A DNA stretch of 32,730 bases from an uncultured Bacteroidia bacterium. GTDB lineage: Bacteria; Bacteroidota; Bacteroidia; Bacteroidales; UBA932. Location of the stretch: NCBI GenBank assembly GCA_902779785.1, contig CACZDC010000018.1:1-32730 (forward strand), given 5' to 3'. Positions 12,224 through 18,820 of the stretch are shown one piece after another (the first letter of the stretch is position 1; every line of letters begins with the position of its first letter). The position numbers were made by a program, and so were the translations under genes. The notes below the pieces were generated by a model that searched no databases, was not told the origin of the DNA, and saw nothing but the letters and a program-made list of their open reading frames with translations.

Positions 12224-13024
12224 ATGAAAAAGTTTTTAATGTTTTTGGCAGTTGCAGGTGCTCTCACCTTCTCCGCTACAGTTGCTTTCGCTCAGGACGA
12301 AGCCGCACCTGAAGCCGCTGAACAGAATGCTCCTGAACAGGAAGCCGCAGCTCCCGCTGAAGTACAGAACCTTTTTGCCGGCACCGGTGAGGACGTTCCT
12401 CTGAACCAGGCCCTCAAGACCAAGTTCATCGAAGGTGGCGCAGGCTTTATGAGCCTCGTTCTCATCTGCCTCATCCTCGGTCTCGCCCTTTCAATCGAGC
12501 GTATCCTCTATCTTGCATTCTCCAAGACCAACACGAAGAAACTCCTCGAGGATGTCGAGAAGGCTCTCGCCGAAGGCGGCGTTGAGAAAGCCAAGGAAGT
12601 CTGCCGCAACACCCGCGGTCCTGTCGCTTCGATCTTCTATCAGGGTCTGCTCCGTATGGACCAGGGCGTCGATGTCGTCGAAAAGACCATCGTTTCCTAT
12701 GGTTCCGTGCAGATGAGCCTTATGGAAAAAGGCCTCAGCTGGATTTCCCTGTTCATCGCCATCGCCCCGTCCCTCGGATTCCTTGGAACAGTTATCGGTA
12801 TGATCCAGGCCTTCGACGCCATCCAGGCTGCCGGTGACATCTCCCCGAACGTCGTTGCAGGAGGTATGAAGGTCGCCCTTATCACCACCGTCGGCGGTCT
12901 TATCGTCGCTATGATCCTTCAGGTCTTCTACAACTACATCCTCAACAAGATCGACACTCTGACAATCGATATGGAAGACGCTTCCATCCGCTTCGTCGAC
13001 ACCATCACCAAGTACAACAAGTAA
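12224..13024 (+). CDS. exbB: MotA/TolQ/ExbB-type proton channel protein
   Basis: 266 residues. A signal-like first helix (MKKFLMFLAVAGALTFSATVAFAQ) is followed by an Ala/Glu/Pro-rich linker (about residues 25-48). The MotA/TolQ/ExbB domain follows, with three hydrophobic segments near 74-95, 170-195 and 215-240. The conserved channel stretch GFLGTVIGMIQAF lies near 185-197 and MKVALITTVGGLIVA near 217-231. It forms the proton channel that drives TonB- or Tol-linked energy transfer across the envelope, together with the ExbD-type proteins downstream. The N-terminal extension is common in Bacteroidota ExbB proteins. It is first in a four-gene cluster ending at a terminator. Confidence 0.92.
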   Translation: MKKFLMFLAVAGALTFSATVAFAQDEAAPEAAEQNAPEQEAAAPAEVQNLFAGTGEDVPLNQALKTKFIEGGAGFMSLVLICLILGLALSIERILYLAFSKTNTKKLLEDVEKALAEGGVEKAKEVCRNTRGPVASIFYQGLLRMDQGVDVVEKTIVSYGSVQMSLMEKGLSWISLFIAIAPSLGFLGTVIGMIQAFDAIQAAGDISPNVVAGGMKVALITTVGGLIVAMILQVFYNYILNKIDTLTIDMEDASIRFVDTITKYNK

Positions 13025-13050
13025 TCAGAACCTGATAATCCCCATTTACA

Positions 13051-13503
13051 ATGGAAAAACAGTTATACGCTAATATATTCAAGTGGGTATCCTGGGCGTT
13101 GCTGATTGTCAGTGTCGTGCTTCTGCTTGTCGCCTTCCCGAAATTCGGGGGTGGAGACGCCAAGGAAGAAGGTGCAGTGACAATGCTGCTGAACTGGGCA
13201 TACGTGATGCTGGGCCTCGCCCTCGTCTCGGTACTCTGCGTAGGACTGTACGTCTCCGCCGTCACCAATCCCAAGAGCCTGATCACCATAGGCATTGTGA
13301 TTGTCGGCGCCGTTGTCGTAGTCCTCGTGGCATACCTGCTTGCGTCCGGTTCACAGCCGCTCGCATACAATGGACCCGAGCCGTCAGCAGGTGAACTCAA
13401 ACTGACGGATACAGTTCTGAATCTTACCTACGGACTTGGCATCGCAGCAATCCTTGCCATCATCGTAGGAGAAATAATGGGCTTTATTCGCAAAAAAGCA
13501 TAA
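13051..13503 (+). CDS. small conserved membrane protein of the exb cluster
   Basis: 150 residues with four hydrophobic segments (about residues 12-29, 44-68, 75-97 and 122-142) and a short lysine-rich tail. I recognise no enzymatic or binding motif. Its place between exbB and two exbD genes, 26 bp after exbB and 3 bp before exbD, makes it a likely accessory subunit of the proton-channel complex. That role is inferred from position only. Confidence 0.7.
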   Translation: MEKQLYANIFKWVSWALLIVSVVLLLVAFPKFGGGDAKEEGAVTMLLNWAYVMLGLALVSVLCVGLYVSAVTNPKSLITIGIVIVGAVVVVLVAYLLASGSQPLAYNGPEPSAGELKLTDTVLNLTYGLGIAAILAIIVGEIMGFIRKKA

Positions 13504-13506
13504 AAC

Positions 13507-14085
13507 ATGGCTAAGAAAAAAACACCGGAGATCAATTCCAGCTCGACAGCGGACATCGCGTTCCTGCTGCTGTGCTACTTCCTGATGACCACCACTATGG
13601 GTGAGCAGTCAGGTCTGCAGCGCCGGCTTCCTCCCATCCCGGACAAGGATGTGAAGGTCGAAGACCAGAAGGTCAACCGCCGTAATATCGTCATCGTACG
13701 TATCAATTCTGCAGACAAGCTCTTTGCCGGTAACGAAGCCATGGACATTAACTTCCTCAAAGAGAAGATGAAGGTGTTCCTCTCCAACCCTAACAACGAT
13801 CCGTCCCTCCCTGAAAAGGAAGAGAAGGAGATCGAGGGCAAGACCTATCTGGTCTCGAAGGGCGTCATCTCCCTGCAGAACGACCGCGGTACAAGTTACG
13901 AGGCCTATATTGCAGTGCAGAATGAGCTCGTGAAGGCGGTGAACGAACTTCGTGATGAATTCTCCGTAGCCCAATTCGGCCGGAAGTTCTCTCTTCTGAC
14001 GGAAGATCAGCAGAACATCGTCAAGAAGGCTGTGCCTCAGAACATTTCCGAGGCTGAGCCGAAAGACACTGGAAAGAAGAAATAG
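13507..14085 (+). CDS. exbD: ExbD/TolR-family protein 1
   Basis: 192 residues with one membrane helix near residues 15-30 (STADIAFLLLCYFLMTT), preceded by a short cytoplasmic tail (MAKKKTPEINSSS). The aspartate in STADIAF is the conserved proton-carrying residue of ExbD/TolR. The periplasmic part is longer than usual (about 160 residues) and lysine/glutamate-rich. The second exbD starts 12 bp after this gene. Confidence 0.9.
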   Translation: MAKKKTPEINSSSTADIAFLLLCYFLMTTTMGEQSGLQRRLPPIPDKDVKVEDQKVNRRNIVIVRINSADKLFAGNEAMDINFLKEKMKVFLSNPNNDPSLPEKEEKEIEGKTYLVSKGVISLQNDRGTSYEAYIAVQNELVKAVNELRDEFSVAQFGRKFSLLTEDQQNIVKKAVPQNISEAEPKDTGKKK

Positions 14086-14097
14086 GAGGATAGAATT

Positions 14098-14571
14098 ATG
14101 TCAAAATTCGGAGGTTCAAATAGTAAGAAGAACGTTCCCGGCATTTCCTCGGGTTCTCTTTCCGATATCGTGTTTATGCTCCTGTTCTTCTTTATGGTGA
14201 CTACCCAGTTGCGTGAGACCGAGAACAAAGTCATCGTCAAGCTGCCCGAGGCAACGGAGGCCGCCAAACTCGAGAGAAAGGACCTGTCCGCCAATATCAA
14301 TATCGGCACCCCGGTCCGTCATCTCCAGAGCCAGTTCGGTACCGATGCCCGTATCCAGCTGAACGATTCTTTCAAGACGGTCGACGACATCCGCGACTTC
14401 ATCGCCGCCGAGCGCGACGCTATGAGCGAGGCTGAAAGGTCCCTTATGACGGTCAACCTTCGCGTGGACGAGGATGTGCGTATGGGTATCGTTTCCGACG
14501 TGAAACAGGAACTCAGGCGCTGCTCTGCGCTGAAGATAATGTATGCTTCCCGCAAGCCCGGTAATGACTGA
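14098..14571 (+). CDS. exbD: ExbD/TolR-family protein 2
   Basis: 157 residues with an N-terminal tail (SKFGGSNSKKNVPGISSG), then one membrane helix containing the conserved aspartate (SLSDIVFMLLFFFMVTT), then a periplasmic domain ending in LKIMYASRKPGND. An AGGAGG-like purine-rich stretch lies 11-15 bases before the ATG (AGGAGGATAGAATT), unusual here because most genes in the window lack one. A strong terminator follows 25 bp after the stop. Paired ExbD proteins may form heteromeric complexes with ExbB. Confidence 0.9.
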   Translation: MSKFGGSNSKKNVPGISSGSLSDIVFMLLFFFMVTTQLRETENKVIVKLPEATEAAKLERKDLSANINIGTPVRHLQSQFGTDARIQLNDSFKTVDDIRDFIAAERDAMSEAERSLMTVNLRVDEDVRMGIVSDVKQELRRCSALKIMYASRKPGND

Positions 14572-14640: not shown

Positions 14641-14776
14641 CAGCTGATCCCCCGCGCCTTCGGGCCGCCGGCTGTCGCCTTCGGACTGCTGGCCGTCACG
14701 CCTTCGGGCCGCTGGCCTCGCCGACCGGAAAATGGTCGGCTTCGCCCAGGAGCCCTCGGCTCCACTATCCTGCCCG
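14641..14776 (-). repeat. GC-rich dispersed repeat, copy B (inverted)
   Basis: On the minus strand it reads GGGCGGGCAGGAT, GTGGAGCCGAGGGCTCC, the hairpin GCCGACC-ATTTTCC-GGTCGGC (14720-14740), then three CCGAAGGCG units spaced 22-23 bases apart, ending in CGCGGGGGATC. The core matches copies A and C almost base for base. It is inverted relative to copy C, 1.35 kb away. Open frames across it (for example 14571-14840, 14577-14765) are translations of the repeat and not genes. Confidence 0.8.
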
Positions 14777-15178
14777 CCCATGCTTTACTTTCACTCGCAT
14801 TTTCGGCATTGCAGGCAATGTGTCTTTTTCATTGCACTAGAATTACTCTAGCCTAACATATATCCTATACTCTGTTGGAGACTTGTACTGTGTCACTTAA
14901 ACATTTTATATTTTCCATAGTTAGCAAACCTGTGCTGTTCATTCGCAAAAAGCAATTATTATCTTTCATTCAAATAGCCAACAGAGCATCTCCTGGCGAT
15001 ATATAAATTTGTGCGACCTACATAATTACTTAATAATCAAAAATTTAATATGAAAGATTTTTGTCAGTCGATTTTAGCTTAACAAACGAAAAAAACACGT
15101 TAATTTACAGACGAAATCAATTATTATCAATTCGCCTATGCAAAATAAAATCTTTCTTAGTGTAATAAAGGTAATGAG
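14777..15178. other. AT-rich stretch without a recognisable gene
   Basis: About 400 bases of strikingly AT-rich DNA between repeat copy B and the promoter of the structured RNA. No open frame above about 20 codons looks coding and there is no tRNA. One perfect minus-7-like box (TAAATTTG, 15004-15011) could start a transcript. A ten-codon frame at 15050 follows it but nothing else supports that frame. A short inverted repeat, CTAGA-ATTAC-TCTAG, lies near 14838-14852. The base composition suggests imported or degenerate DNA. Confidence 0.5.
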
Positions 15179-15210
15179 TTTGCCTCTTTAAAAATTATTA
15201 TTTAAATTTG
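15179..15210 (+). promoter_or_regulatory. promoter of the structured RNA
   Basis: TTTG (15179-15182), a 20-nt spacer and TAAATTTG (15203-15210) match the Bacteroidota minus-33/minus-7 promoter exactly in sequence and spacing. Transcription should begin near 15215-15218. Confidence 0.75.
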
Positions 15211-15214
15211 TAGC

Positions 15215-15373
15215 AACAACACTGTAACCCCTGTTTTATCCTCGCGAAGTCGGAACTTCATTTACGGATGAATAAATAGGTAAGGAATAGAGGCTGACTG
15301 TTAGGCACAGGCAGCTCATTACCTATTGGGTATTCCGACACCCGCGAGGATTGATCTGTCGGTGCCTTTTTTT
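15215..15373 (+). ncRNA. candidate structured RNA (leader/attenuator or small RNA)
   Basis: A transcript of about 160 nt is bounded by a textbook promoter and a seven-T tract (15367-15373). Pairings visible by eye are: P1 ATCCTCGCG 15238-15246 with CGCGAGGAT 15343-15351 (9 bp, perfect); P2 GTCGGAA 15249-15255 with TTCCGAC 15333-15339 (7 bp, perfect); a small hairpin TTCAT-TTACGG-ATGAA 15257-15272; P3 AATAGGTAA 15275-15283 with TTACCTATT 15319-15327 (9 bp, perfect); and an apical stem GAG-CTG-CTGT with ACAG-CAG-CTC (15290-15317, loop TAGGC). Together they form a three-way junction. CCGACA 15335-15340 can alternatively pair with TGTCGG 15357-15362 just before the T tract, forming a terminator-like hairpin that excludes P2. 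The gene downstream starts immediately after. I recognise no known riboswitch core. A 6S-like RNA was considered but cannot be confirmed. Confidence 0.6.
15335..15373 (+). terminator. candidate conditional terminator of the structured RNA
   Basis: CCGACA/TGTCGG stem (6 bp, 16-nt loop), then TGCC and seven T. It is weaker than P1 plus P2, which use the same CCGAC, so it would form only when that structure is disturbed. The T tract ends two bases before a possible start codon at 15375. Confidence 0.4.
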
Positions 15374-15374
15374 A

Positions 15375-16061
15375 ATGACACCGATAATGGAAAAACTGTT
15401 GACTGGCATTTGGACCTGGCCATCATTTCTTTCACTGACAATACTTGTTTGTGGATTCGTCCTTTTTAGACTAATAATCAATAAGAAAGACAAGGCACTG
15501 GCGCTTGCTGCTCGAAGCCTGGATGAAAAGGACAAGACAATAGAATCGTTGAAAGAGAATCTTCGGCATAGCAAAAACAGAATAGAAATGCAGAGGATGA
15601 AGATCAGGCACTTGGAAGAAATAAACTGCAAAATGAAAGAGAGGGACTTGTTGCTGTTCCGCAGCCAGTTCTCCGATATCTCACTTCTTCTCCATAACAG
15701 GACTTTCTCCTTAAGTAGAAGTCACCCGGAAGAGTATCTGGCTCAAAAAGTTGATATTATGCTCGAGAGAATAACTGGCGGGAGTGACGGACTGGGCGAA
15801 CTGGTCAATTGCATAAACAAGCATTTTGACAATGTACTTGTCCGTCTGAAAGATGACATCCCCAATATGACGACTGTGGATTTCAAGATGTTCTGCTATT
15901 ATTGCATCGGGCTCCTCCCGGAACAGATATATCCACTTCTAGGCCTTAACAACGCCTCCACTCTATATCTCCGAAAGAAGCGTCTGTCCGACAAAATCAA
16001 GGCGCTTGGGCCTGACCATTCTGACCTCTACCTTGCACTTCTGAATCCCTGCCACGTGTAG
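15375..16061 (+). CDS. membrane-anchored coiled-coil protein with C-terminal HTH-like domain
   Basis: 228 residues from the ATG at 15375 (MTPIMEKLLT); the ATG at 15387 is an equally possible start. An upstream TTG lies inside the RNA structure and is unlikely. One membrane helix (about residues 13-32) is followed by a basic stretch, then a charged coiled coil (about 35-90: SLDEKDKTIESLKENLRHSK) and a soluble domain. That domain contains TVDFKMFCYYCIGLLPEQIYPLLGL and LYLRKKRLSDKIKALG, the pattern of the DNA-binding end of Bacteroidota regulators that usually carry N-terminal tetratricopeptide repeats before the membrane helix. Those repeats are missing, so it is a short stand-alone form or a decayed remnant. 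It is more AT-rich than its neighbours. DNA binding is inferred. The stop lies about 60 bp before repeat copy C. Confidence 0.7.
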   Translation: MTPIMEKLLTGIWTWPSFLSLTILVCGFVLFRLIINKKDKALALAARSLDEKDKTIESLKENLRHSKNRIEMQRMKIRHLEEINCKMKERDLLLFRSQFSDISLLLHNRTFSLSRSHPEEYLAQKVDIMLERITGGSDGLGELVNCINKHFDNVLVRLKDDIPNMTTVDFKMFCYYCIGLLPEQIYPLLGLNNASTLYLRKKRLSDKIKALGPDHSDLYLALLNPCHV

Positions 16062-16120: not shown

Positions 16121-16290
16121 AAGGATGGTGGAGCCGAGGGCTCCTGGGCGAAGCCGACCATTTTTCGGTCGGCAAGGCCAGCGGCCCGAAGGCGCGGGGC
16201 CGAACAGCGGCAAAGCAGCACGGCAAAGCAGCACGGCAAAAGGCGTCCCGAAGGCGCGGTGGACGGACCGCCACGCGCCCCAAAAGCCAA
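16121..16290 (+). repeat. GC-rich dispersed repeat, copy C
   Basis: Contains the shared core GGATGGTGGAGCCGAGGGCT, the hairpin GCCGACC-ATTTTTC-GGTCGGC (16152-16172), CCGAAGGCGCGGGGCC, two tandem copies of AAAGCAGCACGGC and a further CCGAAGGCG. It ends within a few bases of the asnA stop codon (16296-16298), just as copy A ends at the permease stop codon at 197. It separates two converging genes and could act as a bidirectional transcription barrier. That role is inferred. Confidence 0.8.
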
Positions 16291-16295
16291 CGCAG

Positions 16296-17303
16296 CTACG
16301 CCAGGAAGATGCCGGCGTCCCGGCAGGCGCGGAGCATTTCGGCGGGCCAGATGGAGGACTGGATCTCGCCGATGTGGGCCTTACGGAGAAGGAACATACA
16401 GAGGCGGGACTGACCTATGCCGCCGCCGATGGTCTGCGGCAGCCTGCCCTCCAGCAGAAGGCGATGGAAATACAGTTTCTCCTTGTCAAGCTGTCCCCTT
16501 GCGGCAAGCTGCCTGTGCAATGCAGCCGCATCGACACGGATACCCATACTGGAGATTTCGAAAGCACTCTCAAGCACCGGATTCCACAGCAGGATATCCC
16601 CGTTAAGGGACCAGTCGTCATAGTCCGCCGCCCTGCCGTCGTGGGGTTCCCCATTTGAAAGGACCTCGCCGATCCCCTGGACAAAAACTGCCCCATACTC
16701 CCGTGTAATGGCATTTTCACGCTCCTTGGGAGACAAGCCGGGATAGCGCTGGAGCAGCTCTTCCGAAGAGATGAAGAAAATCTCATCCGGCAGTCTGGGA
16801 ACAATCTGCGGAAACTCCACATAGAGTTTGTTCTCAGTCACTTTCACAGCCTCATAGATACGCCGGACAGTCCGGCGAAGAAACTCTGTCGTACGCTCCG
16901 AGTCCAGCATTACTTTCTCCCAGTCCCACTGGTCCACATAGATAGAATGGATATTGTCCAGCTCCTCGTCCGGCCTCAGGGCATTCATATCGGTATAAAT
17001 GCCCCTCCCGGGTTCCACGCCCAAGGCCGCAAGTTTCAGACGCTTCCATTTAGCCAGGGAATGGACCACTTCAGCTGGCGCGTCATCCAGGCTTTTGACG
17101 GGGAAACGCACCGGACGCTCCACGCCGTTGAGATCATCGTTCAGGCCTTGCCCGGACGGGACAATCATAGGCGCAGTCACCCTGAGCAGCGCAAGCTGGG
17201 CGCTGAGATTGGTCTGGAACATATCCTTGACGGCCTTGATGGCCTTTTCCGTCTGCTCGGGGCCGCCAAGCAGATCCTTATAGTGCTTAGGAATATACAA
17301 CAT
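16296..17303 (-). CDS. asnA: aspartate--ammonia ligase (ammonia-dependent asparagine synthetase)
   Basis: 335 residues, the standard AsnA length. The enzyme makes asparagine from aspartate, ammonia and ATP and is structurally related to class II aminoacyl-tRNA synthetases. Visible family segments are LNGVERPVRF near residue 60, GIYTDMNALRPDE near 102, SIYVDQWDWEK near 120, DEIFFISSEELLQRYPGL near 178, DYDDWSLNGDILLWN near 228 and GGGIGQSRLCMFLL near 293. The ATG at 17303 (MLYIPKHYKDLL) is preferred to a TTG three codons upstream. The minus-7 box lies only 6 nt before the ATG. It is divergent from asnS. Confidence 0.94.
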   Translation of the reverse strand: MLYIPKHYKDLLGGPEQTEKAIKAVKDMFQTNLSAQLALLRVTAPMIVPSGQGLNDDLNGVERPVRFPVKSLDDAPAEVVHSLAKWKRLKLAALGVEPGRGIYTDMNALRPDEELDNIHSIYVDQWDWEKVMLDSERTTEFLRRTVRRIYEAVKVTENKLYVEFPQIVPRLPDEIFFISSEELLQRYPGLSPKERENAITREYGAVFVQGIGEVLSNGEPHDGRAADYDDWSLNGDILLWNPVLESAFEISSMGIRVDAAALHRQLAARGQLDKEKLYFHRLLLEGRLPQTIGGGIGQSRLCMFLLRKAHIGEIQSSIWPAEMLRACRDAGIFLA

Positions 17304-17309
17304 CGCCTG

Positions 17310-17317
17310 CAAAGTTA
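17310..17317 (-). promoter_or_regulatory. minus-7 box of asnA
   Basis: TAACTTTG on the minus strand is a perfect TAnnTTTG, 6 nt before the ATG at 17303. It predicts a leaderless or nearly leaderless mRNA, and it argues against the upstream TTG start, which lies inside the box. Confidence 0.55.
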
Positions 17318-17356
17318 CAAAGTTTTTCCGAAGATGCCCCTCCCGACGCCTTCAGG

Positions 17357-17388
17357 TTTGCTGAATTGGACAAGAAATGCTATCTTTG
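17357..17388 (+). promoter_or_regulatory. promoter of the asnS-udk-tonB-like operon
   Basis: TTTG (17357-17360), 20 nt, TATCTTTG (17381-17388): full minus-33/minus-7 promoter with consensus spacing, 28 nt before the asnS ATG. Confidence 0.75.
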
Positions 17389-17416
17389 TACGATTTAGAG
17401 CCAAGAATAAGCAATT

Positions 17417-18820
17417 ATGGATAAATTGAAAAGAACCAAGATCAAGGCACTGCTCAATCAGGAGCCCGGCGCCGAGGTGCTCGCCAAAGGATGGGTACGC
17501 ACAAAAAGAGGAAACAAACAAGTCAAATTCATCGCCCTCAATGACGGTTCCACAATCAATAATATCCAGATTGTCGCCGCTGCTGAAAGCTTTGACGAGG
17601 AACTCATAAAACGCATAACCACTGGCGCTTCCCTCTCCGTCCGCGGCAAGCTCGTGGAATCCGTGGGCAGCGGACAGGCGGTCGAGATCCAGGCTGAAGA
17701 GATCGAGGTGCTCGGCGAGTGCGACCCTATGCGCTTCCCCCTCCAGAAGAAAGACACCACTCTGGAATATCTTCGCAGCGTAGCCCATATGCGCCTGAGG
17801 ACCAATACTTTCGGCGCGGTCCTGAGAATCCGCAACGCGATGGCCTTCGCGATCCATAAGTTCTTCAACGAGAAGGGCTTCGTCTATCTCCATACTCCGC
17901 TGATCACCGAAAGTGACGCCGAGGGAGCGGGCGATATGTTCCAGGTCACTACTATGGACCTAAAGTCCATTCCCCTTGACAAGAAGGGCAATGTCGATTT
18001 CAGCAAGGATTTCTTCGGCAAAAAGACCTCCCTGACGGTATCAGGCCAGCTTGAAGGCGAACTCGGCGCCACTGCAGTCGGCGAAATCTACACCTTCGGC
18101 CCGACCTTCCGCGCTGAGAACTCCAACACTCCGAGACATCTCGCCGAGTTCTGGATGATCGAGCCGGAGATGGCTTTCTACGATATCAACGACAATATGG
18201 AACTCGCCGAGGAATTCGTCAAATACCTGGTGCAGTATGCCCTTGACAACTGCCTGGACGACCTTAAGTTCCTCAATGACAAATACGACGACGGCCTGAT
18301 CGAAAGGATGCGTTCCGTCCTTGGAATCGCCTTTGAGAGAGTAACTTACACGCGTGCCGTGGAAATTCTGGAAGAGGCCGTGAGAAACGGTGTCAAATTC
18401 GAATATCCCGTCCACTGGGGCACCGATTTCCAGAGCGAGCACGAGCGTTATCTGGTCGAGAAACATTTCCAGAAGCCGGTCATCCTCATCGACTTCCCCA
18501 AGGACATCAAGGCCTTCTATATGAAGCAGAACGAGGACGGGAAGACTGTCCGCGGAATGGACGTCCTTTTCCCGAAGATCGGCGAAATCATAGGCGGAAG
18601 CGAGCGCGAGGCAGACCTGAACAAACTCGAAACCCGTATCGACGAACTTGGAATGTCGAGAAAGAATCTCGAATGGTACATAGATACCCGTCGCTACGGA
18701 AGCGTTCCCCACAGCGGCTTCGGCCTCGGCTTCGAGCGCCTGCTGCTCTTTGTCACCGGTATGGCCAACATCCGTGACGTCATCCCCTTCCCGAGAACAC
18801 CCAAAAACGCTGAATTCTAA
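17417..18820 (+). CDS. asnS: asparaginyl-tRNA synthetase
   Basis: 467 residues, the usual bacterial AsnRS length. The N-terminal OB-fold anticodon-binding domain (about residues 15-105) contains [20 protein letters not shown]. The class II catalytic core follows, with motif 2 as [20 protein letters not shown] near residues 227-246 and motif 3 as [15 protein letters not shown] near 437-451. It charges tRNA-Asn with asparagine, consistent with asnA next door supplying the free amino acid. The stop codon TAA overlaps the udk start by one base (TAATG). Confidence 0.95.

Follow-up and report, generated by a model that had tools for sequence, protein, structure and literature searches.

The RNA encoded at positions 15216-15373 of the window (the whole stretch of 32,730 nucleotides analysed here) is best explained as the 5′ leader of the gene that starts at position 15375 and as a member of a family of cis-acting, two-state leader RNAs of Bacteroidota, a reading to which we assign a probability of about 0.6. 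Comparison of family members supports both sets of helices from which the two states are built, as well as the promoter motif and the orientation with respect to genes. Judged by sequence, the family is phylum-wide and uncatalogued in Rfam 15, and it probably switches the genes located downstream on and off.

The promoter, helices, apical stem and seven T listed in the initial annotation are all present in the window as described. These elements and the gene that follows them are given below.

15179-15210, forward strand: Bacteroidota-type promoter, TTTG-N20-TAAATTTG, found by pattern search
15216-15373, forward strand: the whole RNA, consisting of leader, P1-P4 core, tail and U7; supported by the fold, covariance models R1 and R2, and covariation
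15238-15246/15343-15351, forward strand: helix P1, 9 bp, present in the fold and covarying in relatives
15249-15255/15333-15339, forward strand: helix P2, 7 bp, the most variable and best covarying helix
15275-15283/15319-15327, forward strand: helix P3, 9 bp, from the fold and covariation
15293-15315, forward strand: apical hairpin P4 (15293-15296/15312-15315 plus 4 inner bp)
15304-15314, forward strand: 3′ half of P4, GGCACAGGCAG, which also pairs with the tail
15367-15373, forward strand: U7 run, read from the sequence
15375-16061, forward strand: open reading frame of 228 aa; long N-terminal helix and all-helical C-terminal domain

The TTTG-N20-TAAATTTG pattern has 2 matches in the 32.7-kb window, with 0.25 expected by chance, and transcription would start near position 15216. 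The minimum free energy (MFE) of the RNA is -48.2 kcal/mol (z = -2.68; 3 of 200 shuffles were as good), a clear but modest signal from this single sequence; the decisive evidence that the structure is real is the covariation in relatives, over the fold energy of one sequence. A terminator-like local hairpin (loop 3-8) was not found directly 5′ of the U-run in the window, and the strand adjoining the run pairs at a distance, not locally. A three-way junction had been put forward as a core feature of this RNA. By eye, the hairpin that forms it (15257-15262/15267-15272) is present in the MFE folds of only 2 of the first seven members, the window RNA and L003, which places it outside the family core.

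Relatives of the RNA were not retrieved by the BLASTN-type search that the initial annotation had proposed; they were reached through homologues of the 15375 frame and with covariance models. At the nucleotide level, the window RNA matched its own genome only among 61 genomes. Of the 400 genus genomes searched, 222 contained a match at E ≤ 1; the window aside, the matches listed were short pieces, the best of which falls in the AT-rich promoter. The 15375 frame has relatives in 20 of the 61 genomes (E ≤ 1e-3) and in 21 of the 400 genus genomes (E ≤ 1e-15), its own genome being counted in both cases. Upstream DNA of 12 loci encoding short homologues was inspected: six carry the same RNA layout with largely different letters (L003, L062, L063, L065, L067 and L069), and the other six lack the RNA. 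The congeners L064, L022 and L017 possess a regulator homologue without the RNA. When the window sequence was aligned with the six loci, P1-P4 fell in the same or neighbouring columns, and 20 of 27 pairs were changed on both sides (score 0.508 versus 0.228 for shuffled and at most 0.222 for slid controls; 7 sequences).

Covariance model R1 gave 25 matches in 22 of the 400 genus genomes at E ≤ 0.1 (own genome included), the weakest of them due to chance; weak matches L100, L101 and L102 were not used. R1 matches precede genes of short regulators, TPR-like regulators of about 500 aa and DNA methylases. Model R2 had matches in 14 of 40 genomes at E ≤ 0.5, 11 of these below 1e-3, with 16 copies in genome G051 and 6 in G047, both from other families of the order, and one good copy in the window's own genome. 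A pattern built from R2 copies retrieved at least 119 stretches from named genomes; among the named-genome loci listed, R2 matches 78 of 80 (all except L169 and L172), and R2 scores P1-P3 too, while the scan pattern contains none of P1-P3. The listed loci come from, among others, Prevotella disiens, Hoylesella buccalis, Alistipes muris, Bacteroides muris, Dysgonomonas, Mariniphaga, Sunxiuqinia, Pedobacter and Chryseobacterium. A strictly filtered survey of the phylum detected the RNA in 23 of 296 genomes and in 12 of 140 genera. The later sets exclude L167, which is cut off, and a weak second match in L166; L106, the same as L152, was dropped from them but is counted among the 105 hits of the ORF-distance tally below.

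Phage records contained no match for the RNA region or two related RNAs, plasmid records none for the 15375 protein or two related RNAs (three different related RNAs in all), and a scan of named genomes with the 15375 protein returned no relative. A prophage origin was considered and rejected, the pattern (a pattern match, not a model match) being present in only 5 viral contigs.

The rod-like fold made of P1-P4, state A, is strongly supported by covariation. In an alignment of 22 members, which was fitted to the model, the score is 0.768 versus 0.217 shuffled and at most 0.135 slid, and 25 of 26 pairs are changed on both sides. For 95 members aligned with MAFFT by sequence alone, with the structure read from one member, the values are 0.528, 0.193 and at most 0.117, with 29 of 36 pairs changed on both sides. 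In the latter set P1 is 91.9% and P2 94.8% paired, both being widely variable, and P3a is 77.1% paired; P2 has 316 both-side-changed cells against a permutation maximum of 147, and its 5′ strand occurs in 37 different versions. P4 is 96.6% paired but mostly conserved there (2 of 9 pairs changed on both sides) and varies on both sides in the 22-member set. As aligned, then, P1-P3 covary massively and P4 less. The initial annotation, which regarded this as a real structured RNA, had named a lack of compensatory changes in P1, P2 or P3 as evidence against it; homologues were examined for such changes, and they were found in all three helices across relatives. The idea that P2 serves as an insulation code between paralogues was discarded, as copies in one genome share P2 (7 different versions in 10 G051 copies).

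The same RNAs can be folded in a second way. In the model that we propose, four strands swap partners: L in the leader, X (P3/P4 5′), X′ (P4/P3 3′) and Y, the tail strand preceding the U-run; L is similar to X′, and Y to X. State A would be one rod in which X is paired with X′ and P1-P3 zip the 5′ half to the 3′ half, without a terminator stem. State B would consist of two hairpins, with L paired to X, and X′ paired to Y right before the U-run so as to form a terminator. Three of the pairings involved, P0, P6 and T, had been overlooked in the initial annotation. The elements specific to state B are as follows.

15230-15241, forward strand: leader strand L, pairing with 15266-15271 and 15275-15280 (helix P0); from prefix folds and permutation
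15246-15259, forward strand: hairpin P5, GAAGU/ACUUC, with part of the P2 5′ strand exposed in its loop; from prefix folds
15328-15343, forward strand: hairpin P6, GGGU/ACCC, a competitor of P2 whose 8-nt loop contains the P2 3′ strand
15356-15366, forward strand: tail strand Y, CTGTCGGTGCC, forming helix T with 15304-15314 and adjoining the U-run
15379-15384, forward strand: alternative, weaker partner of tail strand Y, beside the start codon

Permutation tests were carried out with 34 representatives less than 75% alike, thinned from 122 usable members. Both T (z 9.4) and P0 (z 6.7) were matched by none of 2000 permutations. Two control pairings were slightly above permutation, leader with tail (z 2.1; 56 of 2000) and another (z 1.4; 188 of 2000), the former not being a clean control because the four-strand model predicts some complementarity there. 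When strands were swapped between clades in 27 members, T scored 27.4 with its own strands and 16.3 with swapped ones, and 22 of the 27 members beat 90% of swaps (13 with a shortened tail strand, 22 with the full one); in the window, 1 of 44 swaps was as good. An ungapped swap of the leader against the P3 5′ strand gave 22.1 versus 16.5, with 12 of 27 members supporting the pairing. For the window's own P0, 29 of 44 swaps did equally well, and the ungapped comparison lends it no support; the helix has a 3-nt bulge there.

Pairing of the tail with the 5′UTR is moderately supported by the same kind of comparison (z 3.5, 0 of 2000 permutations; 16.0 versus 13.8 for swaps); in 49 of 123 members, no more than 5 of 50 shuffles equalled the native pairing. 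For the window pairing CACCGA/UCGGUG, 3 of 50 shuffles and 4 of 76 swaps were as good.

Scored jointly over the set of 95 members, P0, T and P6 reach 0.198 versus 0.150 shuffled and at most 0.112 slid, and 8 of 19 pairs are changed on both sides, a count reached by 13 of 500 shuffles. Taken singly, P0 has 30 both-side-changed cells (permutation maximum 17), the P5 family stem GAAA/UUUC has 13 (maximum 9), and the P6 family stem AGGU/ACCU, which is 95.0% paired in the 95 sequences, has 7 (maximum 5), so that all three exceed all 200 permutations. The P6 variants GGCU/AGCC and AGCU/AGCU were recognised by eye in L062 and L067. Helix T shows no covariation beyond permutation within this set (2 both-side cells, maximum 2) and thus rests on differences between clades. 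Leader-GCG, X′-extension and U-run/A-run pairings were not above permutation in the 95 members. The full rod leaves no room for P5 or P6, which speaks for selection acting on the second fold as such. An H-type pseudoknot of P2 and P6 was rejected, there being no linker that spans P2; mutually exclusive pairing or kissing fits.

Folds were computed for 8 members. In 7 of them the rod is the minimum-energy structure; the exception is L093, of the methylase subfamily described below, where a local terminator hairpin takes the place of P1 and the minimum falls short of the full rod. When T was imposed as a constraint, the leader hairpin arose in the 5′ half of all 8 members with no further constraint. 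Imposing T costs 3.7 kcal/mol relative to the minimum for the window, 2.1 for L062 and between 8 and 23 for the other six; being less stable in every case (2.1 to 23.3 kcal/mol), the terminator state would depend on kinetic trapping or on a factor. The prefix folds of the window RNA are equilibrium folds and not kinetics; in them, the 5′ hairpin (P0 with P5 inside) appears first, P4 and P3 follow, and the rod is seen only once most of the P1 3′ strand is out.

From these pairings we infer termination, switching, the direction of control and kissing in the following way. During transcription the 5′ hairpin would form first. Should X′ be caught by Y, transcription would stop and the gene would be off; should the rod zip up, polymerase would read through and the gene would be on, so that the outcome would control the next gene's expression. 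In transcripts that have been read through, the tail may additionally pair immediately upstream of the start codon. Each P2 strand lies in a hairpin loop (P5 or P6) in state B, and a loop-loop contact could therefore start the rod. Candidate triggers are a ligand, an RNA-binding protein, polymerase pausing, and loop kissing within or between transcripts. A more specific reading, which we hold tentatively and with somewhat more doubt than belief, is that the class toggles between the rod and two hairpins with complementary loops through intramolecular kissing, which would turn the terminator into read-through, and that it is re-coded at P1-P3 from locus to locus. On the same tentative reading, it would be a common, possibly stochastic, on-off switch in front of surface, secretion, TPR-regulator and methylase genes.

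The surroundings of the family members agree with a role as leaders. TAnnTTTG precedes 103 of 127 members, where shuffles predict 13.7. Of 97 members, 84 have their next downstream gene on the same strand and 7 on the opposite strand, and 6 have none; for the nearest upstream gene, the figures are 55, 48 and 3 of 106. Without the seven members that had been found through the gene, the downstream figures are 78, 6 and 6 of 90. Orientation was judged by a simple longest-ORF rule, for which 97 of 125 members had enough sequence (900 nt or more) on the downstream side. An ATG-initiated frame of at least 90 aa begins within 520 nt in 80 of 105 hits (median start +72). A same-strand gene that consistently comes next and a promoter motif upstream are what one would look for in a cis-regulatory leader, and the family has both.

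The initial annotation left the choice between a cis-acting leader of the 15375 gene and an independent small RNA, with a 6S-like rod as one possibility. The former is the better option because a same-strand gene comes next in 84 of the 97 members. An independent RNA that acts in trans via its loops or tail and merely adjoins genes would have its own promoter motif and U-run, as is the case here, and mutually complementary hairpin loops could kiss between molecules. We nevertheless consider it improbable given the gene orientation and the median start at +72, the tendency of the tail to find a partner in the 5′UTR of its own mRNA, and the fact that P1, unlike a shared trans seed, differs among copies: P1 is different in all 10 of the G051 copies compared (of 16), in 6 of 6 in G047 and in 7 of 10 in a Dysgonamonadaceae bin. 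6S RNA is a stand-alone gene present in few copies and not a leader of varied genes. The proposal of a 6S-like RNA is not supported: the window RNA has no match to a 6S-type Rfam model, there are 16 copies in one genome, and varied downstream genes follow, on the same strand in 84 of 97.

That the family could be a dispersed DNA repeat, such as a MITE- or REP-like palindrome, without RNA function is highly improbable. Conserved wobbles, U-G in P4 (columns 106/128; 74 of 95) and G-U in T (columns 129/217; 52 of 95), accompany the compensatory changes and point to an RNA, not a DNA dyad; the promoter motif and the orientation to genes also speak against a mere repeat. The copies are indeed palindromic and multiple, most G051 loci resemble one another only in the RNA and in at most about 130 adjacent nt, and some share other short repeats (L131 and L132 share related genes), but at about 73-85% identity the G051 copies are not a recent burst.

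At least five T are found at the 3′ end of 102 of 127 members, and 25 have no such run, so termination cannot account for everything. These 25, the tail-5′UTR complementarity and the position of the window CACCGA (15379-15384) just inside the reading frame would all suit a leader that acts mainly at translation, through pairing of the tail near the start codon, and not at termination. We regard this as unlikely, as the T run follows directly upon the helix-T strand in 102 of 127 members, and T is better supported than the 5′UTR pairing (z 9.4 versus 3.5).

Members from Dysgonamonadaceae bins (L136, L144, L168, L197, L198, L201, L204, L208 and L213) often lack the U-run after the tail and keep the tail strand, mostly CCCACGC. 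A tail retained without a U-run may serve a purpose other than termination.

Pfam was run on 64 of the 80 downstream frames, hand-chosen and mostly with the nearest starts. Among the best 25 of 62 families were Fib_succ_major (5), LRR_8 (3), OMP_b-brl (3), HlyD_3 (2), BACON (2) and EcoRI_methylase (1). The regulon thus looks accessory and largely outward-facing, with no evident common pathway. This bears on whether a small molecule, bound by a P1/P2/P6 core, decides between rod and terminator. A metabolite-sensing riboswitch of this kind would explain the short, highly conserved segments GAAA, AAUUU, GGU and ACC around the variable P2, the multi-copy regulon (16 copies in one genome) and an expression platform of the type typical for riboswitches; still, we find it rather unlikely, as no pathway evidently unites surface lipoproteins, LRR, OMP and HlyD proteins and an EcoRI-type methylase, the conserved GAAA/UUUC and GGU/ACC are already accounted for as the P5 and P6 stems, and the central helix P2 varies widely (37 different 5′ strands in 95).

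The RNA subfamily L093, L094, L099, L103, L104, L105 and L110 is distinct and precedes frames resembling EcoRI-type adenine methylases or another N6-methylase, of which one EcoRI_methylase is confirmed by Pfam and the rest were named by eye. The next gene in L104 looks DUF262-like, and the loci are possibly restriction or defence loci. By eye, the L093 5′UTR beyond the U-run repeats strands of the RNA (CCGGATAAG..CAAATGCC) with a fit to the leader; its last element, at the start codon, is a hairpin whose loop GCGCAG fits CUGCGC in the tail. L103 has a stretch similar to that of L093 after its U-run, again by eye.

The 228-aa product of the window gene has an N-terminal helix with a hydrophobic segment followed by a coiled coil (by eye), and its structure model has a pLDDT of 85.3. 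Pfam assigned it no family at E 0.001 (best NARF, E 0.058), and a fold search found nothing significant (best E 0.57). Its C-terminal domain is common to the C-terminus of open frames of about 550 aa, one of which has weak TPR and DUF6377 matches. A DNA-binding role of the product is a guess.

The RNA-regulator pair is located between exbB/exbD-type genes and asnA plus a tRNA-synthetase-class gene (12224-14571, 16296-18820). Inverted repeats of 86 nt (14686-14771 and 16122-16207; 90% complementary, 1350 nt apart) flank this island, and a third copy lies at 93-127 of the window. Allowing up to 3 mismatches, a 27-nt probe from the repeat matches this genome at 16 sites, of which 14 are listed as forward and 2 as reverse. 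Downstream of the exbD-type genes, 14655-14719 consists of GC-rich imperfect tandem repeats (three 21-nt copies). In the congeners L062, L063 and L067, a frame like that at 17417 of the window follows the regulator.

The expectation that the RNA has no Rfam family was borne out by a covariance-model search with Rfam 15. There were no matches over the window at the gathering threshold, and two, far below threshold, for 15100-15450 at E ≤ 10. Twenty related loci gave 6 matches at E ≤ 5, all far below threshold, and 15 further loci gave two tRNAs and nothing else at the gathering threshold.

To our knowledge, few cis-regulatory RNAs of Bacteroidota are known, and these bacteria are abundant in guts, mouths and the environment. 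The family often stands before genes of outer-surface or secreted proteins, which makes a shared RNA switch for surface make-up directly testable, and it occurs in several named strains, among Prevotella, Hoylesella, Alistipes, Bacteroides, Dysgonomonas, Chryseobacterium and Pedobacter records. Compensatory re-coding of copies within one genome is a clean evolutionary test of the design.

In the parts of the open-licence literature available to us, PMC8040213, PMC11697453 and PMC2864571 included, no description of this RNA family was recognised. Only HMP2_4205 might represent an earlier sighting; it is a 'palindromic' candidate of 132 bp, with a predicted terminator, found near TPR genes in Bacteroidetes (PMC8040213). 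Compared by description only and not by sequence, it fits part of the family in length, palindromic nature, terminator, phylum and TPR neighbours; the available text of PMC8040213 gives no two-state model, regulon or mechanism. FopS/GibS of Bacteroides thetaiotaomicron likewise form a multi-copy Bacteroidota RNA family connected with surface proteins, and FopS has canonical Bacteroidota promoters (PMC11697453). According to the part of that text available, FopS RNAs are about 65-70 nt long, target susC mRNAs in trans, carry an R1 seed and come from intergenic, antisense or 3′UTR positions; in length and location they differ from the present family, as judged from the text and not from sequence comparison (PMC11697453).

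The window RNA shares with attenuators and riboswitch expression platforms the position as a 5′ leader with its own promoter and the mutually exclusive, conserved folds, one of which would place a stem right before the U-run. Attenuators and riboswitch platforms are terminator/antiterminator leaders with mutually exclusive folds and a stem before a U-run. The window RNA differs from them in that it would refold as a whole and not merely in a 3′ platform, in that the 5′ arm of its putative terminator is the 3′ half of the apical hairpin, and in that it carries complementary sequences in two hairpin loops; searched with Rfam, it showed neither a leader peptide nor a known aptamer. For an attenuator, a design in which four strands exchange partners and hairpin loops are complementary would be unusual. 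Kissing hairpins of the CopA/CopT and RNAI/RNAII types have complementary loops and can progress to an extended duplex. The window RNA resembles them in having two complementary-loop hairpins able to extend into a duplex, the difference being that here both hairpins are located in one RNA, within which they may kiss.
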